Shown piece after piece: positions 5,682 to 29,237 of a stretch of 55,176 bases of DNA; within the stretch, counting starts at the first letter, position 1, and the number at the start of each line of letters is the position of its first letter. Position numbers and translations under genes: made by a program. Source of the stretch: Candidatus Zhuqueibacterota bacterium (GTDB taxonomy: Bacteria; Zhuqueibacterota; Zhuqueibacteria; Residuimicrobiales; Residuimicrobiaceae); the NCBI GenBank assembly GCA_963169875.1, contig CAUJEL010000139.1, forward strand, positions 1 through 55,176, given 5' to 3'. The notes under the pieces are model-generated. The model ran no database searches and had not been told where the DNA came from. It saw only the letters and a list, made by a program, of their open reading frames with translations.

Positions 5682-5684
5682 GTT

Positions 5685-7257: not shown

Positions 7258-7276
7258 GGGGGTCTCCTTGTATAAA

Positions 7277-8035: not shown

Positions 8036-8058
8036 ATTTTTTTCCTCATGCATACAAA

Positions 8059-8931
8059 TCAGACGCGTTTAAATTTTTTGCGAAAACGGTAGCGGATCCA
8101 GGTGGCCGAAAAATTCATCAATAATACCAGCACCAGCAGCACCAGTGCGGTTCCGTAAGCCAGGGGACGCACTTTGACGATTTCATGGTGCTGGGTTGAC
8201 ATGATGAAGAGATGATAGGGCAGCGCCATGAACTGGCTGGTCAACACTTTGGGAAACGCATTGAGTTGTGGCCAGAAGAAAGCGACGCCGGTGAAGAGAA
8301 TGGGCGCGGTTTCGCCCGCGGCGCGCGCCAGTCCGAGAATGGTTCCGGTGAGCATGCCGGGCACGGCATAGGGCAGCACGTTGGTGCGGATGGTCTGCCA
8401 CTTGGTCGCTCCCAACGCCAGTGCGCCTTCGCGATAGGACATGGGTACGGTCTTGAGCGCCTCTTCGCTCGCAGTGATGGTCCAGGGCAGGGTCAGCAAT
8501 CCCAAAGTGAGCCCGGCTGAAATCACGGACAGGCCAAGGTTCATCATCAGCACAAAAAGGGCAAAGCCGAACAGGCCGTGCACGATGGAGGGCACGCCGG
8601 AGAGGTTGCGGATGGCGAGGCGGATCACGCGCACCAGTCTGCCCTGGGTGGCGTATTCATTGAGATAGATGGCGGAAAAGATACCGACGGGCACAGAGAA
8701 GACGATGGTGACCATGCTCACCCAGAAGGTGCCGACAATGGCCGGCCAGATGCCGCCTTCGGTCATGCCTTTGCGCGGTTTGGCGGTGAGGAACTCCCAG
8801 TTGATCACACCGATGCCCTTGGAGAGGATGTCCCAGACAATATAGGCTACCATGGCCAGCACCAGGACGGTTGCCAGGCGCAGCAGATTAAAGCCCAGTT
8901 GCTGTTGAATTTTGCGCAGGTTTCCTTTCAT
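8059..8931 (-). CDS. pstA: Phosphate ABC transporter permease PstA
   Basis: A 290-residue inner-membrane permease with about six hydrophobic segments and the ABC-permease EAA-type loop ([14 protein letters not shown]). Family features include [22 protein letters not shown] near the N-terminus and [14 protein letters not shown] near the end, both characteristic of PstA. It forms the phosphate channel with PstC. Its ATG overlaps the pstC stop by 4 nt (ATGA), showing translational coupling; AAGGTG lies 6 nt upstream. Confidence 0.95.
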
Positions 8932-9830: not shown

Positions 9831-9905
9831 TTTGGGGTCATATCCGTTATTGGATTTAAATTGGGGCACAACAAAAACAGGTGGCGCCCACAAAAAAAAT
9901 GCTGT

Positions 9906-10110
9906 CATTGCCGGTTGGTAATGCCGGCGGCCACCTTCAGGAAAAGAACATCAATAGCCGCCGGGATGCGCCGCTGCGGCAGTATCCCATTCCGCAGACT
10001 CTATCGGCTTTACCGGTTGCGGCATCCTTCCGGTTCCTGTTTATCGATCCAGCCCCGTTCGTCCTCACGGGATGCCGCAACCTGATGGCCGCCGGGATGC
10101 GCCGCTGCGG
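9906..10110 (-). repeat. Direct and inverted repeats between pstS and pstC
   Basis: A 23-bp perfect direct repeat (GCCGCCGGGATGCGCC then GCTGCGG) is at 9957-9979 and 10088-10110; the second copy abuts the pstS stop codon. Between them are 13-bp perfect inverted arms GGTTGCGGCATCC (10015-10027) and GGATGCCGCAACC (10070-10082). A small hairpin, CATTGCC-ggtt-GGTAATG, is at 9906-9923. In pst operons the binding protein is usually made in excess; such hairpins after pstS could stabilise its 3' end or attenuate transcription into pstC. A decayed repetitive element is an alternative. Confidence 0.7.
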
Positions 10111-10995
10111 TTAGAATCCCGCCTTCTTGTTGTTTTCCAGGTATTGGCCGGCGACCGGGTAAAATCCCATCTCTTCCACAACCTTTTGTCCCTCGGGTCC
10201 GAGGATGAAGGCGATGAAATTCTTCACATTTCCCTTGGGCTTGCCGTTGGTGTATTGATAGAGCGCACGGGCGATGGGATAGGTACCGGCTTTGATGTTT
10301 TCTTTCACCAGCGGGCTGACCGCTTTGGCGTTGCCGGCGGAAACATCCAGCACCTTGATGCCCGGCAGCACCTGGCCCTTGTCATCAAACACATAACCGA
10401 CGCCGACATAGCTGATGCCGGTTTTGTCACTGCCGACGGCTTCCATGATCTGGGCATTGCCGTTCATCTGTTTCATTTTTGCCGAGTAATCCTTGTTGCC
10501 GAGCACGTGTTCCTGGAAGAAGACATAGGTGCCCGAATTGGGCTGACGGCCGTAGAGCGAGATGGGCATGTTGGGTCCGCCGAGCTCTTTCCAGTTGCTG
10601 ATTTCGCCGCGGAAGATGGCGCCCACCTGGGCCATGCTCAACGATTGCACGGGATTGTCATGGTGTACGATCACCGACAGGGCATCGATGCCGATGGCGA
10701 TTTCCGTGGCAACGACGCCGTTTTCCTTGGCGGCGGCGTACTCTTTTTCTTTCATCGGACGCGAGGCATCGGCAATTTGCACTTTGTTGGCGATGAGCGC
10801 GGCGATGCCCACGCCCGAGCCACCGCCGGTCACGGCGATGGCGGTGGCGGGATCTTTTTCCATATAGACTTCAGCGAGACGCTGCACCAGATTGACCGAG
10901 GTGTCAGAGCCTTTGATCTGGATGAAATCCTGGGCTGCGGCGATAGCCGGTAAGGCCACCAGGGCTGCCAGGGCTAAAATGATCGATTTTTTCAT
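10111..10995 (-). CDS. pstS: Phosphate-binding periplasmic protein PstS
   Basis: A 294-residue secreted binding protein with a signal peptide (MKKSIILALAALVALPAIAAAQ). Ligand-loop motifs are IKGSDTS near the mature N-terminus, TGGGSGVGI and GRQPNSGTY, all of which contact phosphate in this family. VGAIFRGEISNW and EGQKVVEEMGFYPV are also typical. There is no lipobox, so the protein is free in the periplasm. It has AAGGAGT 7 nt before the ATG and lies 36 bp downstream of the porin gene, suggesting one transcript. Confidence 0.95.
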   Translation of the reverse strand: MKKSIILALAALVALPAIAAAQDFIQIKGSDTSVNLVQRLAEVYMEKDPATAIAVTGGGSGVGIAALIANKVQIADASRPMKEKEYAAAKENGVVATEIAIGIDALSVIVHHDNPVQSLSMAQVGAIFRGEISNWKELGGPNMPISLYGRQPNSGTYVFFQEHVLGNKDYSAKMKQMNGNAQIMEAVGSDKTGISYVGVGYVFDDKGQVLPGIKVLDVSAGNAKAVSPLVKENIKAGTYPIARALYQYTNGKPKGNVKNFIAFILGPEGQKVVEEMGFYPVAGQYLENNKKAGF

Positions 10996-11031
10996 GGTAT
11001 TTACTCCTTCATTTTTATAAGTGCAATGCTG

Positions 11032-12180
11032 TTATTCACCAATGATCTTCCCGGAATCGAATTTGGCATAAAGCGTGATCCGGGCGGTGACGTCGTCTTT
11101 GAGGCCTTCCCTGGCGTACGATTTGATGAATACATTGGGCATGATGTGCATGTTGCTCACGGGGATATAATCCAGTCCGGCGATGAGAAGGCTGTTCTCG
11201 TCATCCATGCCGCTGCCGCTCATTTTGCCGTTGGAAAATTTCGTATAGACCGTTTCGCTGGTATTGGGATCATAAACATCGTATCGGGCGTAGGCTTTCA
11301 GCTTTGGGATCGGGGTTATCAAAGAGGCAAAGACCGAATAGCCCGTTTTCACCACATCGGCTTTGTCATAGCCGGTCAGTTTAAGGTCGTTGACGACGCC
11401 GTTTTCGATGCCGGATTTTTGATTAGTGCGTTGAAAGTACTCGGCGCCCAGCGTATAGCGCGGCTGGTCGTAGCCGATGAAGGCTTTCCAGGTCATGCAG
11501 CCGGTGGAGCCGGTATAATCCTTGCCCGCACTCATCACCGTGGCGGTCTGCGGGTCTGTTGGATTCTGTTTTTCATAATCCACATAACCCTCGAGGATGA
11601 GACCTCTCATGGGCGTGAGCCACAGGGCATAGCCGATTTTTTTGTAGCGATCGCCTTCGGAAGCGCCATAGCCGGTGCCGTTCATGAAGGTCAGCCAGTG
11701 ATGCACCAGGTTGTTGAGATCGCCCTTGAGGGCGATGCCCATGTCGGCCGAGGAGCTGATCTTGTTGAGGTCCATGATCGTTTTTTCGATGGAACGGTAG
11801 CCCCAGTACTCTTCGCTGTTTTTAAACGCATTGGTTTCGGCGATGCCGAGATAGAGTTTGTGCAGGGGGATGAGGTTGCTCCATTCGATGAACGCGTGTT
11901 TGACAAAGGGGTTGATCTTGCTGGTGCTGCCGTAGGCGCCGTGCTCGGATTCAAGGCGGAAACGCACCTTGATGGCTTCGGTGATGTTGTTTTCGAAGGT
12001 GAAGTAAATACGACGGAACTGAAATGCATTGCGGTCTTTTTCAGCGGCTATGCTGTTATTATGGTTGTAGGAATAGTCAGCGAAAACGACTCCGTCAATT
12101 TTTGAAGTGGTTTGTGCCTGGGTTTGTGCCGATAGTGAAAGCGCCCAAATGGTCAGTGCGAGCATGATTACTTTTTTCAT
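11032..12180 (-). CDS. Outer-membrane porin, probably phosphate-starvation type
   Basis: A 382-residue protein with a signal peptide (cut after about residue 22, AQTQAQ). Alternating amphipathic strands fill the mature part, for example FQFRRIYFTFENNITEAIKV and YTLGAEYFQRT, as in 16-18-strand porins of the OprP/OprO-like (phosphate-selective porin) or related families. It is the first gene of the pst-pho transcript, which suggests passage of phosphate or phosphate esters through the outer membrane; that function is inferred from position. The C-terminus (SGKIIGE) lacks the usual final aromatic residue. AAGGAG lies 7 nt before the ATG. Confidence 0.75.
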   Translation of the reverse strand: MKKVIMLALTIWALSLSAQTQAQTTSKIDGVVFADYSYNHNNSIAAEKDRNAFQFRRIYFTFENNITEAIKVRFRLESEHGAYGSTSKINPFVKHAFIEWSNLIPLHKLYLGIAETNAFKNSEEYWGYRSIEKTIMDLNKISSSADMGIALKGDLNNLVHHWLTFMNGTGYGASEGDRYKKIGYALWLTPMRGLILEGYVDYEKQNPTDPQTATVMSAGKDYTGSTGCMTWKAFIGYDQPRYTLGAEYFQRTNQKSGIENGVVNDLKLTGYDKADVVKTGYSVFASLITPIPKLKAYARYDVYDPNTSETVYTKFSNGKMSGSGMDDENSLLIAGLDYIPVSNMHIMPNVFIKSYAREGLKDDVTARITLYAKFDSGKIIGE

Positions 12181-14289: not shown

Positions 14290-16560
14290 TTGTCTTTAAA
14301 AAAATTGTTATGCTGCACTGCGATAATCGGCTGCATTTTGGGCGCCTCTGCAGGTTTGGCGCAACCACGGGGAGATCGTCCAACCAGACCGGCTGCGCTG
14401 AAAAAGACGCTGGTCGATGATTATTGGCATTATCATAATGTCGGGAATCTCGGTCTCACGGTCACCAATTATGGCGTCATCGGCGAAGGATATAACAATC
14501 CGGATCAGCCTTCCTGCATGTACAAGCTTCAGGCCGATAATCTCCGCGATCAAATCGAACATATGTCTTTTGGCGGTTTATGGGTGGGCGGCCGCAGCGG
14601 CTACGATGGCATGATTCATGTTTCCACCGCTATTGTCGATGGCGTGTTCGAGGCCGGTGAGGAGGGATTCGAGTTCACCAACAGCGCCTCAGCCGGCGAT
14701 ACCGTCAAGATCAGATCGACCATTGTCACCTCCCCCTATTTTTCTCCCGACGCCATTTCCCATCAAGATTTTATATGCGATTTTACCGACGTCAATCTCC
14801 GTGTGCCGGGCACCGATTTTGAAATACCCAATCATACCCCCCTGGGTTTGAATGTGCATCTTGAATCCTACGCCTGGAATTATCCCTACACCGACGCCTT
14901 TGTCATTCTCAATTATACCATCACCAATGTTTCGGCCTATCCCATAGAGGATGTCTATGCCGGCATCTGGTGCGATGCCGCGGTAGGCAACATGAATTAC
15001 ACCAACATTTACGAACCGGGCGGCGGCTGGTCCTGGTACGACAATCTCACCGGCTTTGATGAGCCCTATGATATGGCCTATCAATTCGACGTGGACGGCG
15101 ATGACGGGTTTGCACAGAGCTATTTCGGCTTGCGCTATCTCGGCGCCTCGGCGCAGCGGGACCGCGTACAGGTCGCTTACGATCAATGGCGCTGGAATAC
15201 CTCCAGCAGTCTTGATTATCCCGACTATGTCATGCCCATGGATGATGAAGGCCGATACAATGTGCTCGCGGGCCGTCATACGGGACAATATTTCAATACG
15301 GTTAATGACGGCGGCATCCCCAGTGATCCCGTGAATCTGGGGAGCTGGATGGTCTTTCTGGGCGCCGGGCCGCTTGCCACCCTGGAAGCTGGCCAGTCAA
15401 CCCAGATCACGTTTGCCATTGTCTGCGGTCTGTGGGCCACCCAGGATGTACTGGACAATCCGGAGCGCCGTGCCAATGTGCGGCTCAATTCCGAGTGGGC
15501 GAAAATCGCTTACAACGGCGAAGATGTGGACGGCGATGGCAAGCTCGATCCCAATGAGGATGTGAACGGCAATGGCCTGCTCGATCCGGGTGAGGATACT
15601 TATCAGGCGGCGCTGGATCTCAATGGCAATGGCCGCTGGGACGCCGGCGAAGCGGTGTTTGGCGACAGGGACGGCGTCCTCGATATCGAAGAGGATGTTT
15701 ATTCCAACCTCCTCAAGGGCATCACGGCGGGCAACGGCGTCATCGACCGTTTCATTCTGCCGAGTCCGCCGCCCTCTCCCAATCTCCTGGTGGTCCCGGG
15801 AGATGGCGAGGTCACCTTATGGTGGGATGATCTTCCGGAAGCGTATGAAGATCCCATCACCCGGGAAAAAGATTTCGAGGGATACCGGGTCTACAGCTCC
15901 CCCAAGACGGCCGGGGGCAGCGACGCCACCCTGCTGGCGGAATTTGATGCCATCGATAACCTCGGGTATGACACCGGTTTTGAACTGGTGCGCAAGGATA
16001 CGATGATTGCGGAGCATGCTTACCACTATCGTTTCAAGAACAGCAATCTGCTCTCCGGCTGGCCCGGTCAATATTGGTTCGCGGTCACTGCGTTTGATCA
16101 AGGCAATCCGGCCAACCGGTTGCCGAGTCTGGAGAGTTCGGTTCTCGAGAACAAAACCTATGCCATCATCGGTTCCGCGCCGCAAACCAAAGAATCCGGA
16201 AAACAGGCGGGCGTTTTCCCCAATCCCTACCGCGCGCAGGCCGCCTGGGATGGAGACGGCGACCGCGAACACATGCTGTGGTTTTTCAATCTACCCGCCA
16301 AAGCCCATGTGCGCATTTTCACCCTGGCCGGTGACCTGGTGGATGAGTTTCATCACCATGCAGCGAGTTATCGCGGTGAGGACGTGGAACTGATGCAGCA
16401 AAAGATCGGCTCGACCGGCACGGTGCTGCCGGGCGGCATGCATGCCTGGGATCTCATCTCCGCGTATGATCAGGCCGTGGCCACAGGGCTTTATTTTTTC
16501 AGTGTTGAAAATCAAGAGACCGGGGAAATTCAGACGGGTAAGTTTGTCATTATTAAATGA
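14290..16560 (+). CDS. Secreted sorting-domain protein with EF-hand-like loops
   Basis: A 756-residue secreted protein. A TTG start at 14290 is supported by GAGGA upstream and by the signal peptide LKKLLCCTAIIGCILGASAGLAQ. Residues about 412-460 hold four calcium-loop-like repeats (DVDGDGKLDPNE, DVNGNGLLDPGE, DLNGNGRWDAGE, GDRDGVLDIEE). A fibronectin-III-like region follows (about 490-640). The C-terminal 110 residues (VFPNPYR, then KAHVRIFTLAGDLV, GLYFFSVENQ, GKFVIIK) match the layout of type IX secretion type A sorting domains. It is therefore likely carried to the cell surface. The large N-terminal half has no family I recognise. It heads the envelope cluster that continues to 29237. Confidence 0.75.
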   Translation: MSLKKLLCCTAIIGCILGASAGLAQPRGDRPTRPAALKKTLVDDYWHYHNVGNLGLTVTNYGVIGEGYNNPDQPSCMYKLQADNLRDQIEHMSFGGLWVGGRSGYDGMIHVSTAIVDGVFEAGEEGFEFTNSASAGDTVKIRSTIVTSPYFSPDAISHQDFICDFTDVNLRVPGTDFEIPNHTPLGLNVHLESYAWNYPYTDAFVILNYTITNVSAYPIEDVYAGIWCDAAVGNMNYTNIYEPGGGWSWYDNLTGFDEPYDMAYQFDVDGDDGFAQSYFGLRYLGASAQRDRVQVAYDQWRWNTSSSLDYPDYVMPMDDEGRYNVLAGRHTGQYFNTVNDGGIPSDPVNLGSWMVFLGAGPLATLEAGQSTQITFAIVCGLWATQDVLDNPERRANVRLNSEWAKIAYNGEDVDGDGKLDPNEDVNGNGLLDPGEDTYQAALDLNGNGRWDAGEAVFGDRDGVLDIEEDVYSNLLKGITAGNGVIDRFILPSPPPSPNLLVVPGDGEVTLWWDDLPEAYEDPITREKDFEGYRVYSSPKTAGGSDATLLAEFDAIDNLGYDTGFELVRKDTMIAEHAYHYRFKNSNLLSGWPGQYWFAVTAFDQGNPANRLPSLESSVLENKTYAIIGSAPQTKESGKQAGVFPNPYRAQAAWDGDGDREHMLWFFNLPAKAHVRIFTLAGDLVDEFHHHAASYRGEDVELMQQKIGSTGTVLPGGMHAWDLISAYDQAVATGLYFFSVENQETGEIQTGKFVIIK

Positions 16561-16964: not shown

Positions 16965-19598
16965 TTGAAAAAAATGCTACTGGTTTTTCTGCTTGTCATG
17001 GCCGCAACGGTCGCATGGGCTGACATCACGCCCATTCGGGACATTCAATACACGGCCGATGCTTCGGGCGATTCGCCTTTGAAAGGCCAGACCGTCACCA
17101 TCAGCGGTGTGGTCACGGGTGAAATTTATGCTTTCAAAAATAGTTACTATTACGTCCAGGATGCCAATGCGCCCTGGTCCGGCATCAAGGTGTACGACAA
17201 AAACCACTTCGCCGCTGAGGGCGACCGCGTCACCCTGACCGGCAAGGTGGAGGAGTACAAGGGCGTTACGGAAATCACCACTGTGACGGACTTTAAAGTC
17301 GATTCCACCGGGACCACCTGGATTCAGCCGATGCCTGTGACCACCGGTGAAATCGCCACCGGCGGCGTCAATGCCGAAGCGTACGAGGGCTGTCTGATCC
17401 ACGTCGGGGCGAGCACCATCACCAACCCCAGCCTCGGCTACGGCGAATGGCAGATCGATGACGGCACCGGCCCCTGCCGCGTGGATGACGAGACCAAATA
17501 CTATTTCAAGCCGGCCAACTACACCGCGGTGCAGTCCATCACCGGCATCCTCGATTTTGCCAATGGCGATACCAAGATCGAGCCGCGGCTGGCTTACGAT
17601 GTGATTGAACAGGGCCCTTATACCCGTATCCAGCGCATTCAGCAGGTGCGCCACAGCGATCTGCTCAAGACCCCGACCAAAAACGATGCGGATTTCAGCT
17701 ATATGCTCGATGACACGGTGACCGTGCGCGGCATTGTCACCATGCCCACCGGGTTGAGCTATGCCGGTGCGGGCATCAAATTCATCTTTGCCGATCCAGA
17801 TGGCGGCCCCTGGTCCGCACTGCTCTCCTATAACTCTGATTCCACGGCCTATCCCACGCTTTATGAAGGTGATGAAATTGAGATGACGGGATATATTGAT
17901 GAATATACAACCGGACCCTCAAACATGACCGAGTTTTTCATCACCAGTCCCATCAATATTCTTGATGCCGGCAAACCCCTGCCCAAAGTGGACTCTGTGG
18001 CCACCAGCGCGCTGCGTTGGCCCACCACCGCCGAGCAGTGGGGTAATGTGTTTGTCGAAATCGGTAACGCCCGGGTGACGCGCAACAATATCCAGTATTA
18101 TCTGTTCGAGGTCAATGACGGTTCCGGCGCCTGCCGCATCTATTATGATTCGGACAGTCTGAGCGATTATCCGACCCCGCCCGTGGGCGCAGTCGCCGAA
18201 TCGATCACCGGATGGATCTATCATCATTATGGCAGCTATGCGGATTCCAGCGCCTACAATATCAATCCGCTCTACACGGAAGACATCGTATGGGGCGCTG
18301 CACCGCTGACCATTAAATCCACCACCCGCAGCGCCGTGGCCCCGCCGCCAGCCCAGGCGGTGACGGTGACGACCGTGCTCGATCCGGTGGCTAATGTGGC
18401 ATGGGCCAAACTGTTCTACAAAGTGGATGATGGCGCGTACATGGAATTACCCATGACCCTGAATGCCGGCGCTTTCACGGCGGAAATTCCGGCGCAGCCA
18501 CTGGGCAGCTATATCAGCTATTATGTCGAAGCGGAAGACAACAACGCCGTGAGAGCCTATGATCCGCCCGACCGCGTCAACGCCAACTACGCTTTTGTGG
18601 TGTTGGAGGGGCAACCCGGCATCGCGCAGATTCAATATACCATTTGGCCTTCCGGAGACAGCCCGTTCCAGGACGAAAAAGTGGTTGTTGAAGGCATCGT
18701 GACAGTGGACAGCCTGTTTTTTGCCAAATTCGGGGCCTACGCGATGCAGGATGCGCAAGGCGCCTGGAATGGTCTCTATTTCCTCGGCAAGGTTCCCAAT
18801 AATCTCCATCGCGGCGATCACGTGCGCGTTTTCGGGACGGTGGAAGATCACAACGCCGATTACCTCAGCAAATGGGAAGGCAACACGCAGATAAAAGCCG
18901 ACAGCGTGCAGATTCTCGCCCGTGTACAAGCCTTGCCCGCGGTGGAATTGGTCAAAACAGTCGATTTGACCAGCCGCAGCACAGCTTCGGAAAAATATGA
19001 GGGTGTTTTGGTGCAGGTCAAAAACGCAACCCTCACCGCCATCAATCAATACGACGTCACCATTGATGACGGCAGCGGACCGTGCCTGCTCGACGGCGAT
19101 GGCTTTGTCGGCCGTGATCAGGACAAAAACAATCTCTTTTATCTCAATCGCCTGCTCAAGTTTTTGATCGTCGGCGGGGATACGTTGCGGATTGGCGATC
19201 AGATCGATGTCGTCCAGGGTGTTTTTCTCTACAGCTTCGGCTCGCACAAGATCGAAGTTCGCGATCTGGACGATGTTGGCACGACGACGGGCGTGGAAAA
19301 TGCGGTGGTGGCGCCGCCGCTGCGCTATGCGCTGGATCAGAATTATCCCAATCCCTTCAATCCGGAGACGCGGCTCTATTTTCAATTGCCTGCAGTCCAG
19401 GATGTCAAGTTGATCATTTACAACATCCGCGGCCAGATCATCCGCCATCTGCTGGACGCGCGGATGGATGCCGGGGACCATGTGGTCAATTGGGATGGCC
19501 GGGATAACAGCGGTCAACCGGTGCCGACCGGCGTCTATATCTATCGCCTCAAAGCGGGCGATTACATGGCAGCGCGCAAGATGACGCTGGTGAAATAA
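16965..19598 (+). CDS. Secreted triple double-OB-module protein with T9SS sorting domain
   Basis: An 877-residue secreted protein. The TTG start at 16965 has AAAGGAG 7 nt upstream and opens the signal peptide (LKKMLLVFLLVMAATVAWA). Three tandem modules (about residues 21-215, 220-442 and 549-775) each pair an OB-like half (pattern V.ISGVVT...YYVQDA..PWSG...GD.VTLTG.VEEY) with a second half ending in DDGTGPCR or DGSGACR. Such OB folds occur in extracellular nuclease-associated proteins. An Ig-like insert occupies about 445-547. The end (NYPNPFNPETRLYFQLP, YNIRGQIIRHLL, GVYIYRLKAGD, RKMTLVK) is a type A T9SS sorting domain. No catalytic domain is seen; binding of nucleic acid or sugar is possible but unproven. 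Confidence 0.8.
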   Translation: MKKMLLVFLLVMAATVAWADITPIRDIQYTADASGDSPLKGQTVTISGVVTGEIYAFKNSYYYVQDANAPWSGIKVYDKNHFAAEGDRVTLTGKVEEYKGVTEITTVTDFKVDSTGTTWIQPMPVTTGEIATGGVNAEAYEGCLIHVGASTITNPSLGYGEWQIDDGTGPCRVDDETKYYFKPANYTAVQSITGILDFANGDTKIEPRLAYDVIEQGPYTRIQRIQQVRHSDLLKTPTKNDADFSYMLDDTVTVRGIVTMPTGLSYAGAGIKFIFADPDGGPWSALLSYNSDSTAYPTLYEGDEIEMTGYIDEYTTGPSNMTEFFITSPINILDAGKPLPKVDSVATSALRWPTTAEQWGNVFVEIGNARVTRNNIQYYLFEVNDGSGACRIYYDSDSLSDYPTPPVGAVAESITGWIYHHYGSYADSSAYNINPLYTEDIVWGAAPLTIKSTTRSAVAPPPAQAVTVTTVLDPVANVAWAKLFYKVDDGAYMELPMTLNAGAFTAEIPAQPLGSYISYYVEAEDNNAVRAYDPPDRVNANYAFVVLEGQPGIAQIQYTIWPSGDSPFQDEKVVVEGIVTVDSLFFAKFGAYAMQDAQGAWNGLYFLGKVPNNLHRGDHVRVFGTVEDHNADYLSKWEGNTQIKADSVQILARVQALPAVELVKTVDLTSRSTASEKYEGVLVQVKNATLTAINQYDVTIDDGSGPCLLDGDGFVGRDQDKNNLFYLNRLLKFLIVGGDTLRIGDQIDVVQGVFLYSFGSHKIEVRDLDDVGTTTGVENAVVAPPLRYALDQNYPNPFNPETRLYFQLPAVQDVKLIIYNIRGQIIRHLLDARMDAGDHVVNWDGRDNSGQPVPTGVYIYRLKAGDYMAARKMTLVK

Positions 19599-19906: not shown

Positions 19907-21415
19907 ATGATGAAACACAAAATCAAAAACATTTGCATCTTACTGCTGCTGATTTTGGCCGTCAGCTGCGGACTGAAGGATCCTTTCGGCGACGATCGGA
20001 CGTCAAAGCCGGTCGGCAATCTGCCGCCCGAAACCCATCTTTTCCTGCACGTCAACCAATCCCAGCGCACTGTCAACGATACCCTGGGAAATGGCCAGAT
20101 CGTGGTCAAGATTTACACCGTGGGGCTGGATACCACGCCCAGCCGTCAGATCGTGCGTTGGTGGGGCGATGATCCGGACGGCGCCGTCGCCGGCTATTAT
20201 TACCAGTGGGACTATCAGGCAGAGCCGGTTTTTACAACCGCCGAGTTTGACACTTTCTACGTGCCCATCCGCAGCCAATACGACGAATTTTCTTTCAAGG
20301 TCTGGGCGGTGGATAACCAGGGACTGCAGGACCCGACCCCTGCTGAACTGCGATTTCCGGTTTACAACACACCACCCACCATCTCTTTTCGTCTCAATTC
20401 CAATCCACGGGTTGTGGGAAATCAGAATGTCACAGCCCATACCTTCCCGACGCGGACCTTTGTCTGGGACAGCCACGATGATGACGGCCGCGAGACCATC
20501 ACCGGCATCTATTATGCCCTGGATGACACAACGGCATGGACGCAACTGCCCGGCGATGCCGATCAGGTGACGCTGCGCGGCATTGTCCCCGGTGAACACC
20601 GGTTCTTCGTCAGAGCGCAAGACGTGTCCGGCGCCACGAGTCCGGTCATCTCTTTTCCGGACCCGTCTGATTCGCAGTCACCCTTGCACTGGGTGGTAAA
20701 ACCGGTGGCAGGCGAAATCCTTCTCGTCAATGATTTTGCCCAGGATCAAACGCTCTATCAGGTGCAAGCTTTTTACACCGGCATTCTCGATCAGCTGGTC
20801 GGAACAAATGGTTATTCAGTTTGGGAAATTGGCTCGGATAGAACGCCCTTGATCAATTCTGAAAATGCGCTGCCCTACTCACCCGTCGATATCGAAGCCA
20901 ATTTTTCCTATTTCAAAAAAGTCATCTGGTTTGCGCATCTCGGCCGCCCCAATTTGAGCGACGCGGGTCTCAGCATCACGCGCTTTATGAAGAACGGCGG
21001 CAAGATCTTTATCAGCAACGGCAATGAGGAACGGCCGGACACCACGTGGACGTTCACCAACATCGATTCGGTATACCGCCTCAATCCCGGCGGTCGCCTG
21101 CTGGCCGGCATCGATGTCCCGGCCAGTTTCGGCACCGGCCAGGACGACGCCCTGATGCTCAGCCTCGGCAAGCTCGTGGGCAATCGCGTCTCCGCCCTGA
21201 TCCCCGGGCCCGATGCCGATGTGGTTTACCGCATGCAGGAAGATTCCACGGCAACGGTTACTGTCCCGTATGCGGGCTCTCCTCCGGTGGGTATACGCTA
21301 TCGTATTGGTACAGGCGAATGTATCTATTTTTCGCTGCCGTTGCATTATTGCGATGGCAGGAAGAATATGACTGAAGTGTTCCGTTACCTTTTATTTGAA
21401 GAATTTGGTTCCTAA
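19907..21415 (+). CDS. Large lipoprotein, first gene of receptor operon
   Basis: A 502-residue protein with a lipoprotein signal peptide (lipobox LAVSC, Cys near residue 22). Residues about 40-250 contain two fibronectin/Ig-like repeats (IVRWWGDDPDGAVAGYYYQWD and TRTFVWDSHDDDGRETITGIYYALDD). The C-terminal half (EILLVNDFAQDQ, then VIWFAHLGRPNLSDAGLSITRFMKNGGKIFISNG) has the look of a Rossmann/GATase1-like DUF4350 or ThuA-type domain. Function is unknown; envelope location is clear from the lipobox. It ends 3 bp before the TonB-dependent receptor gene, so the two are co-translated and may form an outer-membrane complex. Confidence 0.72.
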   Translation: MMKHKIKNICILLLLILAVSCGLKDPFGDDRTSKPVGNLPPETHLFLHVNQSQRTVNDTLGNGQIVVKIYTVGLDTTPSRQIVRWWGDDPDGAVAGYYYQWDYQAEPVFTTAEFDTFYVPIRSQYDEFSFKVWAVDNQGLQDPTPAELRFPVYNTPPTISFRLNSNPRVVGNQNVTAHTFPTRTFVWDSHDDDGRETITGIYYALDDTTAWTQLPGDADQVTLRGIVPGEHRFFVRAQDVSGATSPVISFPDPSDSQSPLHWVVKPVAGEILLVNDFAQDQTLYQVQAFYTGILDQLVGTNGYSVWEIGSDRTPLINSENALPYSPVDIEANFSYFKKVIWFAHLGRPNLSDAGLSITRFMKNGGKIFISNGNEERPDTTWTFTNIDSVYRLNPGGRLLAGIDVPASFGTGQDDALMLSLGKLVGNRVSALIPGPDADVVYRMQEDSTATVTVPYAGSPPVGIRYRIGTGECIYFSLPLHYCDGRKNMTEVFRYLLFEEFGS

Positions 21416-21418: not shown

Positions 21419-24124
21419 ATGAAAAAGAGATACCTGTTTTTTACGGCCCTCCTCAGCCTGTGCACGCTCGCCGCGGGACAATCCACGGTGATCAGCGGCC
21501 GGGTCACGGATAAAAAAACCGGCGAGCCTTTGCCGGGGGCCAATATCATTGTGCCCGGCACCTATAAAGGGGCCGTGACCAAAATGGATGGTTCCTACGA
21601 GATCGCCGGGCTTGCGCCCGGAGACTATGATCTCAAGGCCTCCATGATCGGTTATACGGTGCAGCTCCGCACCGGCATCCGCGTCGAAGCCCAGAAGACG
21701 GTGCAGGTCCATTTCAATCTTGAGTCCACGGTGCTGGCGCTGGGACAAACCGTCGAGGTGATCGGCGAAAAGCCGCTCTTTGAAACCGACATCACCGCTT
21801 CACAGCAGCGCCTCTCCTCCGAAGAGATCAAGCAAAAAGTGGTCGAGAACGTCAACGACCTGGTTGGCGAACAGCTGGGCGTGGTGGTGCAGGACAACAA
21901 AATCCATATCCGCGGCGGCCGCGCTGATGAGAGCCTCTACATCATCGATGGACAATCCGTCAAGGATCCCCTGTCGGGGTATTCCAATACGCTCTACGTC
22001 AACGCTTCCGCCATCAAGGATCTCAAAGTCATCACCGGCGGATTCGACGCCGAGTATGGCCAGGCCATGTCCGGCGTCGTCGATATTGAAACCAAAGAAG
22101 GCGATGATGAGTATACCGGGGGCTTGAGCATTAAATCGGACAACCTGCTCAGGAAGATGGTCAAGGGGTTCAACAGCGATATCGCCCAGTTCACCATCGG
22201 GGGACCGGAACCTCTGTCGACCTATCTGCTGCCCGGCAAGGTCAATTTCTTTCTCAGCGGCTATGGTCATATCACGGACACCTACCTGCCAAAAGCGAGC
22301 AAATTGTATCCCTCCAAAAGCGCCTATGAGAAATTTGCACCGCGAGAAGAGAATGACTGGCACCTCATGGCCAAATTGTCCTGGACCATCAAGCCCGGGA
22401 AAAAGCTGACGCTTTCCCATGACCAGTCTCTCAACATCAACCAGGGCTATTTCACCCCGGTCATCATGGATGCGCGCGGATTTCCGTACGAATACGCCAG
22501 GATGCTGGATCATTACAATACCCTCACCAAGGAAACCACGCTCACCAACGCCCAATGGGTGCATACGATCAACAACCGCACCTTTTACCGGTTGAGTTTT
22601 TCCCGCTTTTTCACCAGCATCCACTCGGCGGTACAGAATAAGAACTGGAGCGACTACCAGCAGCAGCTCGATCTCGAGCCCATCTATTACGTCCCGGATA
22701 CCCAGGGCAATGTCCAGACCCGGTTCGGCGATGGCTTTTGGGATACCGGCGATGCCGAGGGCTGGTACGATTATTTCAGCGACAATTATACCTTAAAGGG
22801 CGATCTCACCACCCAGCCCAATGACAAGCACTCCATCAAGACCGGCTTTGAAGCGCGTTATACCGACATGCAAGTGGTGGACATCAACGCCCCCTGGTAT
22901 GGCGAAACCGGCCTGGGCCGCAATCACGACTATTTTCGCGTTTATCCCAATGATGGCGCCTTTTACATTCAGGACCGGGTGACCTATGACGGCATGATCG
23001 TCAATCTCGGGCTGCGCTATGATTACTGGTTTCCGGGCAAGTTCGTCGATGACGCCATCAATGATTCCAATACGGTCACGATCACCGATGCCGCGCGCGA
23101 GAAATATCGCAACGAGACCTTTGAGGTATTCGGCATGCGCGGCAAAGGGCACCTCAGTCCGCGCCTGGGCATCAGCCATCCGGTTACGGACAACGATGTG
23201 CTCTATCTTCATTACGGCCATTTCTCGCAGCAACCCAAGGGCCAGTATGTGTATGCCAAGTTGCGCTCGACCTCGGAAGCCACCTATCAGCTCTTTGGCA
23301 ATCCCAATCTCAAACCCACCACGACGGTGGCTTATGAGATCGGCCTGAAGCATCGTTTCAATGCCAACCAGACACTGGAGATCAAGGCCTATTACAAGGA
23401 CATGTTCGACTATCCGACCGCGGCGTCCATTCGCAAATACAGTCCGAGGTACGGCAACATCAGCTTTTTGATGTATGTGAACATGGATTACGCGCGCTCC
23501 CGCGGCATCGAGATGCGTTTCCGGCGCCGCTACTCCAAATTTTTGAGCGGCAATATCGATTTCACCTATGCGCTGGCCACGGGCAAGAGTTCAACCCCCA
23601 ACACGAATCTGCTGGTGGTAGCCGGCAAGGTGAGTGAGAAGCCGTTGCGCGAGAGCCGCCTCAGCTGGGACCGGCCGTATCGCTTGTCTTCGGACATCTA
23701 TTTTGACATGCCGCAGGACGCCAATATCCGCTTGCTGGGCATGCGTTTGCCTGAGAACTGGGGTCTGACGTTGCGCTGGGAGTATGAATCCGGAAAGCGA
23801 TATCAGCGGATCATTGATGTGGCCAATAACATCTATGAGAAGGACGAAAACGGCAGTCTTTCGGATCCCTGGATGCGCGTCGATCTCAAATGGTACAAGG
23901 ATTTTGAAATCGCCCGGATGCGTTTTTCGCTGTTTATCGAAGCGGAAAATCTTTTGAACACGAAAGTGCCGCGTATCATCAATCCGGTGACCGGCCGGCC
24001 CTTTGAACCGGGTGATCTCATTCCGGTCACCTGGCACGATGAACCCATGGATCTGCCCGCGGATAATCCGGCGCGCTACGATTGGCCGAGGCGGGTCATG
24101 ACCGGGCTGGAGATGAGATTCTGA
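21419..24124 (+). CDS. TonB-dependent receptor with carboxypeptidase-like N-domain
   Basis: A 901-residue outer-membrane receptor. It has a signal peptide of about 20 residues and a carboxypeptidase-regulatory-like beta-sandwich (about 22-100: SGRVTDKKTGEPLPGANI, DGSYEIAGLAPGDY). The plug domain (about 115-230) includes IHIRGGRADESLYIIDGQSV and GFDAEYGQAMSGVVDIET. A long beta-barrel ends in the aromatic GLEMRF, as expected for Bam-inserted barrels. Energy comes from TonB-ExbBD, not present here. Substrate is unknown. The stop codon overlaps the next ATG by one base, giving strong coupling to the PorV-like gene. Confidence 0.9.
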   Translation: MKKRYLFFTALLSLCTLAAGQSTVISGRVTDKKTGEPLPGANIIVPGTYKGAVTKMDGSYEIAGLAPGDYDLKASMIGYTVQLRTGIRVEAQKTVQVHFNLESTVLALGQTVEVIGEKPLFETDITASQQRLSSEEIKQKVVENVNDLVGEQLGVVVQDNKIHIRGGRADESLYIIDGQSVKDPLSGYSNTLYVNASAIKDLKVITGGFDAEYGQAMSGVVDIETKEGDDEYTGGLSIKSDNLLRKMVKGFNSDIAQFTIGGPEPLSTYLLPGKVNFFLSGYGHITDTYLPKASKLYPSKSAYEKFAPREENDWHLMAKLSWTIKPGKKLTLSHDQSLNINQGYFTPVIMDARGFPYEYARMLDHYNTLTKETTLTNAQWVHTINNRTFYRLSFSRFFTSIHSAVQNKNWSDYQQQLDLEPIYYVPDTQGNVQTRFGDGFWDTGDAEGWYDYFSDNYTLKGDLTTQPNDKHSIKTGFEARYTDMQVVDINAPWYGETGLGRNHDYFRVYPNDGAFYIQDRVTYDGMIVNLGLRYDYWFPGKFVDDAINDSNTVTITDAAREKYRNETFEVFGMRGKGHLSPRLGISHPVTDNDVLYLHYGHFSQQPKGQYVYAKLRSTSEATYQLFGNPNLKPTTTVAYEIGLKHRFNANQTLEIKAYYKDMFDYPTAASIRKYSPRYGNISFLMYVNMDYARSRGIEMRFRRRYSKFLSGNIDFTYALATGKSSTPNTNLLVVAGKVSEKPLRESRLSWDRPYRLSSDIYFDMPQDANIRLLGMRLPENWGLTLRWEYESGKRYQRIIDVANNIYEKDENGSLSDPWMRVDLKWYKDFEIARMRFSLFIEAENLLNTKVPRIINPVTGRPFEPGDLIPVTWHDEPMDLPADNPARYDWPRRVMTGLEMRF

Positions 24125-25149
24125 TGAAACGAGCCAATACCTATTTTAACAAGAGTGCAGGTGTGTCCAAAAAATACATTTTGCTGATAGCCGCGTTTTT
24201 CGCACTGCAGGTGAACGCCCAGGGGCTGCTGCCCAGGCTGGGTGAACAGCGCGCGGGGACCGCGGCGGTCACCTTTCTGAAAATCGGCATCGGCGCCCGC
24301 GCCAATGCCATGGGCGGCGCCTATGTGGCCATGGCCAATGACGCCTCAGCCATGTACTGGAATCCGGCCGGCCTGGTGCAATCCGGCAAGAATGAACTGG
24401 CCGTCTCGCATCTGGATTGGCTGGTGGATGTGGATTATGAATATCTCGGCTATGTCCATCAGATCACGCCCAATCTCGGGGTGGGCGCTTTTGCCGGCTA
24501 TCTCCATTTTGACGATATGCCGGTGACGACCGAGTACCATCCCTATGGCAATGGCGAGTATTTCTCCTACAGCGATCTGGTCGCCGGCATCACCGGGTCG
24601 CTCAAAATGACGGACCGGTTTTCCTTCGGCGTGACGGTCAAGTATGTGCGCGAGGAGCTGGCGGATTTGGCCATGGACGGCGTGATGCTGGATTTGGGAA
24701 CCTATTACTGGACTGGTTACAGGAGCCTGCGCATCGCCGCGGCCATGCGCAATTTTGGCAACGACCTGCGCCCCGAAGGCACATACGAACGCCGGAAAAC
24801 CAGCGGCACCACCACGACCAATTTCCAGTCTTTCTCGCCGCCGACGCTCTTTACGTTGGGCGCGGCCATGGATGTCTATGAAAAGAAATCGCATCTGCTG
24901 ACCGCCTCGGTGCAGATGAATCACCCCATGGATGATCAGGAAAATTTCGTCATGGGTGGAGAGTATCGCTATCGCCGCCTCTTCTTTCTCCGGGGAGGCT
25001 ATCGCGCCAGTATGGATGAAAACCAGTGGACCTTTGGCGGCGGCGCCTGTTTTCTGCTCAAAGGCGTACGGATGAAAATTGATTATGCCTATGCGGATTA
25101 TACCCATTTGACCATGACACAACAGTTTACCTTTGGATTTGAGTTTTAA
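24124..25149 (+). CDS. PorV/PorQ-family outer-membrane protein
   Basis: A 341-residue protein with signal peptide (KKYILLIAAFFALQVNAQ) and the hallmark PorV/PorQ start AGTAAVTFLKIGIGARANAMGG...ANDASAMYWNPAGL. The rest is a beta-barrel of the FadL-like fold, ending FTFGFEF. PorV is an outer-membrane partner of type IX secretion that delivers cargo to the attachment complex; PorQ and many paralogues have less defined roles. Here it is locked between a TonB-dependent receptor (1-bp overlap) and a lipoprotein (0-bp gap), and two sorting-domain proteins lie upstream, so a dedicated export or attachment role is plausible. It may equally be a general PorV paralogue. Confidence 0.85.
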   Translation: MKRANTYFNKSAGVSKKYILLIAAFFALQVNAQGLLPRLGEQRAGTAAVTFLKIGIGARANAMGGAYVAMANDASAMYWNPAGLVQSGKNELAVSHLDWLVDVDYEYLGYVHQITPNLGVGAFAGYLHFDDMPVTTEYHPYGNGEYFSYSDLVAGITGSLKMTDRFSFGVTVKYVREELADLAMDGVMLDLGTYYWTGYRSLRIAAAMRNFGNDLRPEGTYERRKTSGTTTTNFQSFSPPTLFTLGAAMDVYEKKSHLLTASVQMNHPMDDQENFVMGGEYRYRRLFFLRGGYRASMDENQWTFGGGACFLLKGVRMKIDYAYADYTHLTMTQQFTFGFEF

Positions 25150-26388
25150 ATGAAGAAAACCAATTTGACCATAATACTGGGCGCTCTGTCGCTCCTGCTG
25201 GCCTGCGAGATGGACAAGATGCCTCTGCCCAGTCCACGCGCGGCCAATTCATCCTTTGGCGCCAATGACACCAGTTACGTGGAATTGAATCCCGTTTGGG
25301 ATTCCGATTATCTGGGTGTGAATCTGGATGCGCCGAGTGACCTGACCATGGGACCCGATGGCATCCTCTATCTGGCTGACCAGGAGGGAGGTCGTATTCA
25401 CGCCTTTTCAAAGGCTGGCACCCGCTTGACCGGTCATGGGCTGGATCAAATTAATGGTGTGCCGGTACCAAGCGGTCTGGATATGGACAGCAAGCTCAAT
25501 TTATTGATCGTCAACGGCAGCCCCACCATATATGCCTGGAACCAGTACCTCAATCTCTCCGAAATCGACTCGATCGCGGCCAAGGGGGTCTATTGGGACC
25601 GCGCCGGGAATGATACGCTGCACCTCACTTTTGCAGAATACCGGGACCGGCTGAGTTCAGGTTCCTCTCTTTCGCTGCGGTACTATCTCTTCAAAAAAGA
25701 CGATGCGGCGGTCCAAGCCGCTCGCGAGGCCTATCCGCTCTACCAGGCTGCTGAAAACGATGCCCGGTTTAATGGCGTGGCCTCCGGCAAGTATGGTTCG
25801 GAATTTTTCTATATCACCGAGAGCAATTATGACCGGATCTATCAATTGCGCCTGATACCTGATTTGGCGCTCAAAGGCCGGGGAAGACAGCTATTGTTTC
25901 ACTACACAGCCATTTTCGAAAAAGTAGTTGCCGCGTACGGATCCGGGTCCGGCACAGTGGACAATCCCTGGGCGATCACGGCCGACAGCGATGAGAACCT
26001 CTACTTTACACAACTGGGCGGCAATTTCAAGGTGCAAAAGCTGCTTGCGGAGACCTTTGCGCCGCGCTATGTGCTCTATCAACACGCCATCATGGATCTG
26101 GATCGTTTCAATGCCCCCATGGACGTGGCGCTGGACGATGCGGGAAATATATTTGTCATGGATGCGGGCGCGGGGTCGGTCTACAAATTTGCCAACGCAG
26201 GCGTGGCCGCGGGCGCGCTTATGCCTTTGGGCAATAAGGGCCTGGCAATAACGAACTTTATTGAAGGCCGCGGACTCTTGGTCAGCGACAATGTGGTCTA
26301 TGTGGTCGAACAGGGCGCCCGGCGCATTCGCAGGTTTCAATATTCCGTCTCGGACTCCGATCTGCCGGATGACGAGAAGAAGCCCTAA
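25150..26388 (+). CDS. NHL/beta-propeller-like lipoprotein
   Basis: A 412-residue lipoprotein (lipobox LLLAC, Cys near residue 19) that begins on the base after the PorV-like stop codon. Repeats of the NHL/SMP-30 type are visible: APSDLTMGPDGILYLADQEGGRIHAFS, NPWAITADSDENLYFTQLGG, APMDVALDDAGNIFVMDAGAGSVYKF. A lower-similarity insert of about 100 residues separates the first blades from the later ones. Such propellers serve as binding scaffolds on the outer membrane. The C-terminal tail DDEKKP is charged. Last gene of the four-gene coupled unit; the next gene starts 134 bp later. Confidence 0.75.
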   Translation: MKKTNLTIILGALSLLLACEMDKMPLPSPRAANSSFGANDTSYVELNPVWDSDYLGVNLDAPSDLTMGPDGILYLADQEGGRIHAFSKAGTRLTGHGLDQINGVPVPSGLDMDSKLNLLIVNGSPTIYAWNQYLNLSEIDSIAAKGVYWDRAGNDTLHLTFAEYRDRLSSGSSLSLRYYLFKKDDAAVQAAREAYPLYQAAENDARFNGVASGKYGSEFFYITESNYDRIYQLRLIPDLALKGRGRQLLFHYTAIFEKVVAAYGSGSGTVDNPWAITADSDENLYFTQLGGNFKVQKLLAETFAPRYVLYQHAIMDLDRFNAPMDVALDDAGNIFVMDAGAGSVYKFANAGVAAGALMPLGNKGLAITNFIEGRGLLVSDNVVYVVEQGARRIRRFQYSVSDSDLPDDEKKP

Positions 26389-26522: not shown

Positions 26523-29237
26523 ATGAAGTATTCGATTCGAATTGTGCTCACACTTGTCCTGGTTTTTGTGCTCGCCAACGGGCTTTACGCCCAGACCGGG
26601 AAGATCGTCGGTCGCGTTTTTGATGGCGCTACCAAGCAGGCATTGATCGGTGCGAACGTGCAGGTTGCTGGCACCAGCCTGGGCGCTGTCAGCAATATGG
26701 ATGGCAACTTTACCATAACGGGCGTGAGTGCCGGGGATCAACAGGTAAAAGTTACCTTTGTGGGTTACGAGTCGGTTGAAAAAACTTTGGCCGTGACAGC
26801 CAATAAAACTGTCACTGCGAATTTTTCACTGACGCCGACCATGATCATGACAAAGGGTATCAGTATCTTCGCCGATCGTGCTAAGGAACGCGAAACACCG
26901 GTGGCGTTCACCAATGTGCAGAAGCAGGAGATGACCGCCAGGTTGGGCTCTCGTGATATTCCGCTGGTGCTGACGACCACGCCAAGTGTGTATGCCACCA
27001 CAGGCGGAGGCGGGGCGGGAGACGCCCGCGTCAATGTCCGCGGTTTTGATCAGCGCAACGTCGCCATCATGATCAATGGTGTGCCGGTGAACGATATGGA
27101 GAACGGCTGGGTGTACTGGTCCAACTGGGATGGCGTCTCCGATGCCACCTCTTCCATCCAGATGCAGCGCGGTCTCAGCGCCGTCAATTTGGCCACGCCT
27201 TCCATCGGCGGCACCATGAACATCATCACCGATCCCACCTCGCAATCCGCCGGCATCCTGGCGCGTCAGGAAATTGGCAGTGAGGGCTTTTTGAAGACCA
27301 CCGTCAGCGCCTCCAGCGGGCTTATCAATGAAAAATTCTCCGTCAATGGCACTGTGGTGCGCAAGACGGGTGACGGTATCGTCGACAAAACCTATACTGA
27401 TGCATGGGCGTATTATCTGGGCGCAGCGTATAACCTTAATGCCAAAAACCGCCTCGAGCTCTACGCGTTGGGTGCCCCGCAAAAACATGGTCAAGCCACC
27501 AACAAGCAGAACATCGGCGTGTATGACAAAGCGTTTGCACTCGGCCTCGATGGCTATGATCCAGCTGCGGCGGAGAAATACGTCGAATCCGCATCCGGCC
27601 GTAACTACAACCAGAACTGGAACAAGGTGGATCCGTCCTATACAGCCAAACAGTTCTATAATGGCAAAGAGCACGAACGTCACGGCACAGACTTTATCAA
27701 TGAACGCGAAAATTATTACCACAAGCCCATTGTCAATCTCAACTGGTTCTCGCAACTCAGCGACAAAGCGGCGCTCTATTCGGTGGTGTACTATTCCGGC
27801 GGCACCGGCGGAGGATCCGGGACCTATGGATCTGTCACCAGCGACAAGACGCAGTTTCCCAATCCGCGCGATTGGAACGCAACCATCGCCGCCAATCAGG
27901 CCAGCACCACGGGCGCCAAAGGCATTCTGCGCAACAGCACTAATAATCAGTGGACGGTGGGCGCCATTTCCAAGTTCAATTACGAGTTCAGCAAGAATGT
28001 AAAAAGCGCGATTGGCGTGGATTGGCGTACGGCCTCGGTCGACCATTTCCGCGAAGTACGCGACCTGCTCGGCGGCGAATACTATGTCGATCTCAAGGCC
28101 GACAAAGTGAGCCCGAGAAGCGATTTCTGGAGCGCCGAACAAACCAAGCGCAAACTCGGCGATAAAGTCGATTATGATTTCACAAACGACATCAACTGGA
28201 TGGGTTTCTTTGGCCAGACTGAATACTCCAAAGACAAGATCACCGCTTACGGTATGGCGGGCTACTCCATGGTGAAATACAACCATACCAACCACTTCAA
28301 AAAAGGGGACGACGGCAATGAGTTGACCCTCGAGAGCGATTGGATCGGCGGCGTTCAGGTTAAAGGCGGTGCCAGCTACCGCGCCACTGATAACATGAAT
28401 GTATACGCCAATGTTGGTCATGTTTCCAAAGTCCCGATTCTGGATAACGTCATCAGCGATGTCACTTCTTCTTTGGCTAAAAATCCCAAGAATGAGACCT
28501 TCCTCTCTTTTGAGGTAGGGACCAACATTCATCTCCTCGACAACAAACTGGCGGCCAAACTCAACATCTATCACACCAACTGGAACGACCGCGCCAAAAC
28601 CTACGGCATCATCGATGAGACCGGCGATGAAAGCATCATCTTCATTTCCGGCATGGATCAGGTGCACCAGGGTGTTGAGCTCGAGTTGGCTTATCAGCCC
28701 GTTCGTTTGCTTCGCTTTGATGCTGCGATGGGCCTCGGCAGCTGGAAAAACACCAATGACGTTTCCGGATACTATAAAGATTACTCCGGAGCCGTGGAAA
28801 AAACCGTTGACTATAATTTCTACGTCAAGGATCTCAAGGTTGGCGATCAGCCGCAAACTCAGCTGGTGCTGGCGACCACGGTTTTCCCGATTGACGGGGC
28901 CCGCCTCGAAGTGATCGCTCGCCATTACCGCGATCATTACGCTTCCTGGGACCCGTTTGGCCGCACCAAATCCACAGATCGTGCCCAAAGCTGGAAAGCA
29001 CCGGACTATACGGTTGTCGATTTGCACGCTGCCTATACGCTGCCCGTTTCCGTTGGCAAGGCGAAATTCCAGCTGTTTGCTCACGTCTTTAATTTGCTCG
29101 ATGAAGTCTACATCCAGGACGCTGTGGATAACAGTTCCTACAGCGCGTTCGGCGACAAAACCCACGCTGCCGACGATGCAGAGGTATGGATGGGCTTGCC
29201 GCGCAATTTCAACTTCGGCGTCCAGGTCAACTATTAG
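26523..29237 (+). CDS. Second TonB-dependent receptor
   Basis: A 904-residue receptor with signal peptide (about 24 residues, ending LYAQ). A carboxypeptidase-like domain (about 26-105: VGRVFDGATKQALIGANV, MDGNFTITGVSAGDQQV) precedes the plug (about 125-240: VNVRGFDQRNVAIMINGVPVNDMENGW, IGGTMNIITDP). The barrel ends NFNFGVQVNY. It is only distantly like the receptor at 21419, so it is not a recent duplicate. Ribosome binding site: AAGGAGG 8-14 nt upstream of the ATG. It has its own 134-bp leader and is closed by a strong terminator, so it may be transcribed alone. The substrate is unknown; no SusD-like partner is nearby. Confidence 0.9.
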   Translation: MKYSIRIVLTLVLVFVLANGLYAQTGKIVGRVFDGATKQALIGANVQVAGTSLGAVSNMDGNFTITGVSAGDQQVKVTFVGYESVEKTLAVTANKTVTANFSLTPTMIMTKGISIFADRAKERETPVAFTNVQKQEMTARLGSRDIPLVLTTTPSVYATTGGGGAGDARVNVRGFDQRNVAIMINGVPVNDMENGWVYWSNWDGVSDATSSIQMQRGLSAVNLATPSIGGTMNIITDPTSQSAGILARQEIGSEGFLKTTVSASSGLINEKFSVNGTVVRKTGDGIVDKTYTDAWAYYLGAAYNLNAKNRLELYALGAPQKHGQATNKQNIGVYDKAFALGLDGYDPAAAEKYVESASGRNYNQNWNKVDPSYTAKQFYNGKEHERHGTDFINERENYYHKPIVNLNWFSQLSDKAALYSVVYYSGGTGGGSGTYGSVTSDKTQFPNPRDWNATIAANQASTTGAKGILRNSTNNQWTVGAISKFNYEFSKNVKSAIGVDWRTASVDHFREVRDLLGGEYYVDLKADKVSPRSDFWSAEQTKRKLGDKVDYDFTNDINWMGFFGQTEYSKDKITAYGMAGYSMVKYNHTNHFKKGDDGNELTLESDWIGGVQVKGGASYRATDNMNVYANVGHVSKVPILDNVISDVTSSLAKNPKNETFLSFEVGTNIHLLDNKLAAKLNIYHTNWNDRAKTYGIIDETGDESIIFISGMDQVHQGVELELAYQPVRLLRFDAAMGLGSWKNTNDVSGYYKDYSGAVEKTVDYNFYVKDLKVGDQPQTQLVLATTVFPIDGARLEVIARHYRDHYASWDPFGRTKSTDRAQSWKAPDYTVVDLHAAYTLPVSVGKAKFQLFAHVFNLLDEVYIQDAVDNSSYSAFGDKTHAADDAEVWMGLPRNFNFGVQVNY

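Follow-up and report, generated by a model that had tools for sequence, protein, structure and literature searches.

Several described systems resemble parts of the locus discussed here. Xds combines an OB fold with an EEP domain (PMC6746945, excerpt), and in ExeM removal of the OB region, which is reported to be crucial, nearly abolishes activity (PMC6085458, excerpt). The dome of the Bacteroidota BAM complex combines surface lipoproteins with a propeller and a barrel of the FadL type. Among the BtBAM subunits, BamG is homologous to FadL and has been compared with PorV, and BamI holds a propeller (PMC12578637, excerpt). PorV itself is called a shuttle of the type IX secretion system (T9SS) in the excerpt of PMC8564354. 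Among the titles and abstract openings listed in a thin search of the open PMC literature, we found no description of an enzyme-free T9SS protein with multiple OB folds, nor of the six-gene cluster to which the protein described here belongs.

The protein, referred to as the OB protein, is encoded on a contig of 55,176 nucleotides from a Candidatus Zhuqueibacterota bacterium; the whole of this stretch is called the window. The features of the OB protein are the following.

16965..19598, plus strand: OB protein, 877 aa from a TTG start, with signal peptide, three double-OB modules, Ig-like domain and sorting tail
16965..17024, plus strand: signal peptide, read by eye
17025..17624, plus strand: module A, double OB, closest to modules found beside EEP domains
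17625..18308, plus strand: module B, double OB, the best conserved
18309..18614, plus strand: Ig/CBM56-like domain (CBM_56 25.3 bits, cut-off 27)
18615..19277, plus strand: module C, double OB (tRNA_anti-codon and DUF5689 below cut-off when the module is scanned alone)
19326..19595, plus strand: FlgD-like type IX sorting tail, last 90 residues (FlgD_ig and TIGR04183 over cut-off)

The TTG at 16965 is the likely start codon, because an AAAGGAG site lies 7 bases before it and the same place reads LKK in 7 of 26 relatives and MKK in 3 (the rest differ or are cut). An earlier note on this DNA had described a secreted sorting-domain protein without a visible enzyme domain, and both parts of that description agree with our findings. 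The sorting tail scores 41.9 bits for FlgD_ig, over its cut-off, and 27.9 bits for TIGR04183 (cut-off 23), with Pfam Por_Secre_tail (18.6) under its cut-off, and SprA, a T9SS gene, is encoded in the same genome (863 bits). With a C-terminal sorting domain and a T9SS in the genome, the OB protein is predicted to be T9SS cargo. A search of this genome with the OB protein gives 152 matches, almost all of which fall on the sorting tail; together with SprA they suggest a large T9SS secretome. No enzyme family passed its cut-off in the Pfam and NCBIfam scans of the OB protein, and the HxKxxxxD motif occurs in none of 106 OB frames (80 from named loci and 26 from a genome set, with several genomes in both). 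A hidden catalytic site was rejected on these grounds; a site of some unknown kind is possible.

The internal repetition claimed in the earlier note is borne out by self-alignment. In a numbering of 874 residues in which ATG 16974 is residue 1, the modules span 18-217 (A), 218-445 (B) and 548-768 (C), and their local scores (A-B 148, A-C 185, B-C 107) exceed the maxima of 500 shuffles each (63, 57 and 52), with z scores of 18.3, 31.2 and 15.6. The spacer 446-547 lies outside the repeat (z 0.4 to A and 0.6 to C). The motifs G(V/I)VT, W(S/N)(G/A) and GD.(V/I)...G.(V/I)(E/D) are common to all three modules. The IQYT...SGDSP start, which had been read as recurring, is found only in A and C, B having a divergent start, and the proposed xDDGSGPC half takes the form DDG(T/S)GPC in A and C but NDGSGAC in B. 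Three modules are thus present as described, but they do not stand in tandem throughout, as the Ig/CBM56-like domain separates B from C.

An AlphaFold2 model built from 60 sequences, with alignment rows from the 59 of 80 named loci that passed a coverage filter, has a mean pLDDT of 90.3 and a pTM of 0.59, so that the domains are well defined and their arrangement less so. A model from the single sequence (pLDDT 32) was set aside. In VIA-align, model residues 1-97 match OBody with Z 11.1 (rmsd 2.3 over 87) and residues 321-427 with Z 11.5 (rmsd 2.5 over 94); the solved OB folds found with these two stretches also include aspartyl-tRNA synthetase and HIN domains, with Z values between about 10 and 12. 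Two of the six halves are therefore matched directly to solved OB folds in the model, and the other four are assigned because of the repeat and a predicted strand order consistent with six barrels; the six OB folds of the earlier note hold. The 50 Foldseek matches listed from the PDB have query TM of at most 0.13, are mostly multi-domain Ig/FN3 proteins and are not taken as evidence; human CST, PorU, PorZ and GbpA are also among the matches listed. We are nearly certain of the overall architecture, namely three double-OB modules together with one Ig-like domain and a tail for type IX sorting.

Several relatives of these modules belong to nuclease-type proteins. The NCBIfam model for ExeM/NucH (NF033681) matches the OB protein at 69.5 bits (2.7e-19), short of its cut-off of 300, and the alignment is confined to profile positions 2-115 (best stretch) and 2-120 of 546; we take profile 2-115 to be the OB part of ExeM/NucH. 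Modules A and C are homologous to this OB region, and the OB protein thus has a double-OB (YhcR-like) region of the ExeM/NucH kind; no EEP domain was found in it with Pfam. The profile A2 finds the EEP-named chains 9sf8 (4.9e-7) and 9sf9 (9.3e-7), with the best stretch in their first ~80 residues. In two further genomes of the order, the best match to module A is a protein with a double-OB region; A scores 311 and 309 against these two regions, compared with 185 and 148 against its own sisters C and B. These two proteins carry two lamin tail domains each and an EEP match, at 35.5 bits in L046, over the cut-off of 24.5, and at 23.4, just below it, in L047.

A module tree was built from 12 chosen orthologues and 5 other proteins. 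Of the 13 A modules, 12 group with those of L046 and L047 (support 93/88, branch not starred). Modules B and C each cluster by position across phyla (100/100 and 100/99), so that a recent duplication was rejected for these two, and A does not form one group in this tree (3 changes), being broken by nuclease-type modules and by L144_A. The three modules are acidic, with net charges of -13, -15 and -11. This acidity was not counted against DNA binding, since the modules beside EEP domains are likewise acidic.

Two further kinds of relative should be mentioned. One double-OB protein of the window's own genome has a PLD domain (138.9 bits).

L045:6027-8441, contig C99: double-OB-like region, PLD-type domain and sorting tail

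Its product is perhaps a secreted nuclease or phospholipase. DUF5689 (PF18942) reaches 13.4 bits in the window protein, below its cut-off of 28.6, and passes the cut-off in three of six scanned relatives, L134 (71.8 bits, 3 stretches), L137 and L128, but not in L139 or L109. To our knowledge DUF5689 has no known function.

The OB protein varies among its relatives. In named loci with at least 80% of a module aligned, the median identity is 58% for B (n=78), 46% for A (n=77) and 36% for C (n=67), with 51% for the tail (n=73). Module A is missing in L048-L051 and L072, and in L052 and L053 a lamin tail domain takes its place at the start. Other relatives have extra modules and many lack C, so that the number of OB folds varies. 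A CXXCH motif is found near the N-terminus in 20 of the 106 OB frames, all within the 80 named loci. The cytochrome-like OB proteins with this motif are those of L095, L098, L128, L129, L134, L135, L137-L143, L145-L148 and L150, nearly all from loci titled Neomarinimicrobiota or Marinimicrobia; in two more loci, L109 and L118, the OB protein begins with CXXCH, and that of L109 has a Reeler-type domain next to it.

The OB gene is the second in a cluster of six genes with a constant order, S, OB, Lp, T1, PorV-family barrel and NHL propeller. Its neighbours in the window are listed below.

14290..16560, plus strand: S protein, 756 aa, T9SS-type, without a Pfam family; signal peptide and CTD-like end read by eye
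19907..21415, plus strand: Lp, 502 aa, without a Pfam family; a LAVSC box, read by eye, marks it as a lipoprotein
21419..24124, plus strand: T1, TonB-dependent receptor with carboxypeptidase-like N-terminal domain and plug
24124..25149, plus strand: PorV/PorQ-family barrel, 204.3 bits for NF033709 against a cut-off of 90; its start was picked by eye
25150..26388, plus strand: NHL beta-propeller, taken as a lipoprotein from a LLAC box read by eye
26523..29237, plus strand: T2, second TonB-dependent receptor, not a constant member

We investigated the neighbourhood by tblastn of the window genes against 31 genome stretches (26 with an OB orthologue) and the 80 named loci, which were kept from 86 relatives found. 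All six genes were found in 49 of the 80 loci, and in all 49 their order is the same. A locus was counted as scorable if its contig was long enough or the gene was found, which biases the figures slightly towards hits; on this basis S lies upstream of OB in 66 of 68 loci (the misses are L106 and L130), and downstream we find Lp in 73 of 73, T1 in 63 of 63, and PorV and NHL each in 58 of 58. That the six genes form a functional unit appears very probable. Neither for S nor for Lp did Pfam give a family, be it for the window proteins or for four relatives of each; the one exception is a PKD hit that stays below cut-off. T1 belongs to the best conserved proteins of the cluster. None of the six is a nuclease, phosphatase or nucleoside gene.

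A few observations concern the surroundings of the cluster. In the nearest relative the Lp gene is split over two frames (L054:7583-9029), by a frameshift or an assembly error. A Caldithrix MAG (L082) carries S, OB and Lp on a short contig. After the cluster, within 29679-30990, the window encodes a single-stranded DNA-binding protein (30490-30990; ssb 57.8 bits, cut-off 53.95) and a product with a weak NUDIX hit, and homologues of both genes recur in G002, G010, G011 and G013. An open frame of 1487 aa lies at 41817-46280. Rfam gave no match at gathering score, and the promoter scan (20 sites, shuffled mean 14.9) and the terminator scan (30, against 20.7) were not used.

The named loci are titled KSB1, Calditrichota, LCP-89 and, in many cases, Neomarinimicrobiota, with a few others such as Deferribacteres and Actinomycetota. 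We surveyed 61 genomes of the window's phylum that are at least 85% complete. The OB protein hits 38 of them; G008, G016 and G018 were dropped, as they match only the first ~200 positions inside frames of 1215-1335 aa (that of G008 carries an EEP domain). This leaves OB orthologues in 35 genomes, with T1 in 35 and Lp in 37. OB and T1 occur together in 34 genomes, each alone in one, and neither in 25, thus agreeing in 59 of 61, and all three proteins are absent from 24. The exceptions are G056, which lacks only T1 of the three, G051, which lacks only OB, and G050, which has Lp alone; G013 has two OB loci. The genomes are related, so that Fisher p values for the cluster association are too small. 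In the phylum of L103, which is titled Neomarinimicrobiota, the OB protein is matched at E 1e-60 in 68 of 149 genomes, once in 64 of these and more than once in 4, with no match in the other 81. The surface system is common and dispensable, and the OB protein is not essential, as many genomes of both phyla have no match to it. A mobile or viral origin was rejected: of 50 viral-contig pattern matches none was confirmed, and plasmids and phages gave no match. The 50 BFVD matches listed have query TM of at most 0.13.

We suggest that a conserved surface system of the outer membrane has in the OB protein its secreted capture subunit, one without an enzyme, a reading to which we give a probability of about 0.4. 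That it captures for the receptor T1 is a tentative proposal, a little short of even odds. Its place in a conserved TonB/PorV cluster suggests that it works within an outer-membrane complex and not as a binder by itself. The T9SS would carry the OB protein and S to the cell surface, where the OB protein would sit with the Lp and NHL lipoproteins near T1; the PorV-family barrel of the cluster is perhaps the shuttle. Several OB faces, with module B as the core, might then bind a large extracellular ligand and hand it over to T1, which would import it with TonB energy; SusD-type proteins serve SusC in this way. Against this reading, T1 may signal rather than import, the six genes include no nuclease, phosphatase or nucleoside gene, the number of OB folds varies, and G056, G051 and G050 have incomplete sets.

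The nature of the ligand is a further question. Nucleic acid leads because the nearest modules belong to nuclease-type proteins, and the binding of extracellular DNA that the earlier note had proposed is plausible from these sequence relationships; as an answer for the ligand, nucleic acid is nonetheless doubtful in our view. OB folds also bind sugars and proteins, and sugars are a possible ligand. Two other double-OB proteins of the same genome match no nuclease, which argues against a DNA-only reading, and DNA capture gives no account of the cytochrome-like domain in some relatives.

The main rival to capture is a scaffolding role in a complex for outer-membrane assembly or for secretion. 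The OB modules would then hold proteins together, much as the parts of the Bacteroidota BAM dome do. A PorV-family barrel, a propeller lipoprotein and other surface proteins in fixed order are similar parts, and the high conservation of module B would suit a fixed partner. We consider this possible, if on the unlikely side. The absence of OB, T1 and Lp from 24 phylum genomes, and of OB from more than half of the Neomarinimicrobiota genomes at the threshold used, speaks against an essential assembly factor, the BamA family was not found among the cluster proteins scanned, and the strong conservation of T1 suits a transport role.

It is also conceivable that the system captures polysaccharides, in the manner of a PUL-like system without a hydrolase of its own, with the OB modules as oligosaccharide binders and the Ig-like domain as a CBM56-type domain. 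The CBM_56 match, below cut-off in the window protein, rises to 35.8 bits, over cut-off, in L092. The Ig-like domain matches CBM56 with Z 10-11 in VIA-align and the Ig-like domains of amylase-type enzymes with Z up to 12.7, and a TonB receptor is encoded close to the OB gene. However, Ig domains from other proteins fit this domain just as well (PPAD Z 13.2, SiiE 10.6), it is the least conserved part of the protein (median 31% identity, n=37), and no glycoside hydrolase family was found in the cluster proteins scanned. We consider it quite improbable that polysaccharide is what the system captures.

A phosphate transporter operon lies divergently, just upstream of the cluster, and raised the idea that DNA might serve as a source of phosphorus.

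4224-12180, minus strand: phosphate operon, PstA and PstC by NCBIfam; PstS, PstB, PhoU, PhoB, PhoR and porin by reading

The cluster would then belong to the Pho regulon and serve to scavenge extracellular DNA under phosphate starvation. Of 11 other genomes of the order, 5 (G003, G004, G005, G010 and G011) have homologues of PhoR/PhoB or Pst close to the cluster, but in 23 genomes of other orders, of which 5.8 to 59 kb each were examined, there are only weaker matches (PstB up to 36%, PhoR up to 30%, PhoB up to 41% over ~105-residue stretches). Among 15 named carriers, 8 have no PstC hit at 1e-30, and in 5 of the 7 PstC-positive ones PstC and the OB gene are on different contigs (2 were not compared); the assemblies are fragmented, so neither figure is proof. 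Shared local synteny accounts for the linkage equally well and we treat it as such; a Pho-regulated role appears very unlikely. A surface redox or electron-transfer module, with a cytochrome borne by the OB array of certain lineages, is hardly credible: L098 (Cytochrom_C, 27.5 bits) and L134 (PSCyt1, 43.8 bits) pass the cut-off among six scanned CXXCH relatives, but three of the six reach cytochromes only below it and L109 has the Reeler domain instead, and CXXCH is absent from the window protein, from 86 of the 106 OB frames in all (some cut at the 5' end) and from the frames of S (0/89), Lp (0/99), T1 (0/87), PorV (0/78) and NHL (0/76).

Returning to capture at the outer membrane, its most far-reaching form would be a six-part machine common to KSB1, Calditrichota, LCP-89 and Neomarinimicrobiota. 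Its OB array, of nuclease type but without the enzyme, would take up nucleic acid at the surface and feed it to a dedicated TonB receptor. We regard this as improbable; if true, it would be a receptor-driven route of nucleic-acid uptake without a nuclease of its own. Neomarinimicrobiota (SAR406) are widespread in the ocean, and their uptake, like that of KSB1 and Calditrichota, is poorly known. If the OB protein binds nucleic acid, it would offer a testable mechanism for DNA or RNA scavenging, and if it is a scaffold, it would mark a new outer-membrane complex. A locus of six genes in one order, usually in single copy and with two members (S and Lp) for which the proteins scanned gave no Pfam family over cut-off, points to a specific shared trait.

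How does this locus compare with the known systems? Paired-OB DNA binders such as the HIN domains share the OB fold (Z ~10 to HIN), a similarity of fold only, and they are eukaryotic intracellular proteins; human CST ranks sixth among the Foldseek matches listed, with a query TM of 0.12. DUF5689 has about the length of one double-OB module and is recognised in some relatives, but the window protein itself stays well below its cut-off. The Bacteroidota BAM dome (BamG-K), as excerpted in PMC12578637, likewise has a FadL/PorV-type barrel, a propeller lipoprotein and an extracellular assembly. The cluster differs in having a TonB receptor, in being absent from many genomes and in showing no BamA or BamD match among the proteins scanned. 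With SusC/SusD-type systems it shares a TonB-dependent receptor with a carboxypeptidase-like domain beside surface proteins and lipoproteins. In contrast to them, T1 reaches only 70.8 of 368 for SusC/RagA, no SusD family was matched among the proteins scanned, and the proposed capture protein is OB-based and sorted by the T9SS. The ExeM/NucH family (NF033681) is secreted too, has an OB region homologous to modules A and C and, in the case of ExeM, according to the excerpted source, a lamin tail domain as in some relatives of the OB protein. Unlike these nucleases, the OB protein has three modules and an Ig-like domain, carries no EEP domain and is encoded in a TonB-receptor cluster.
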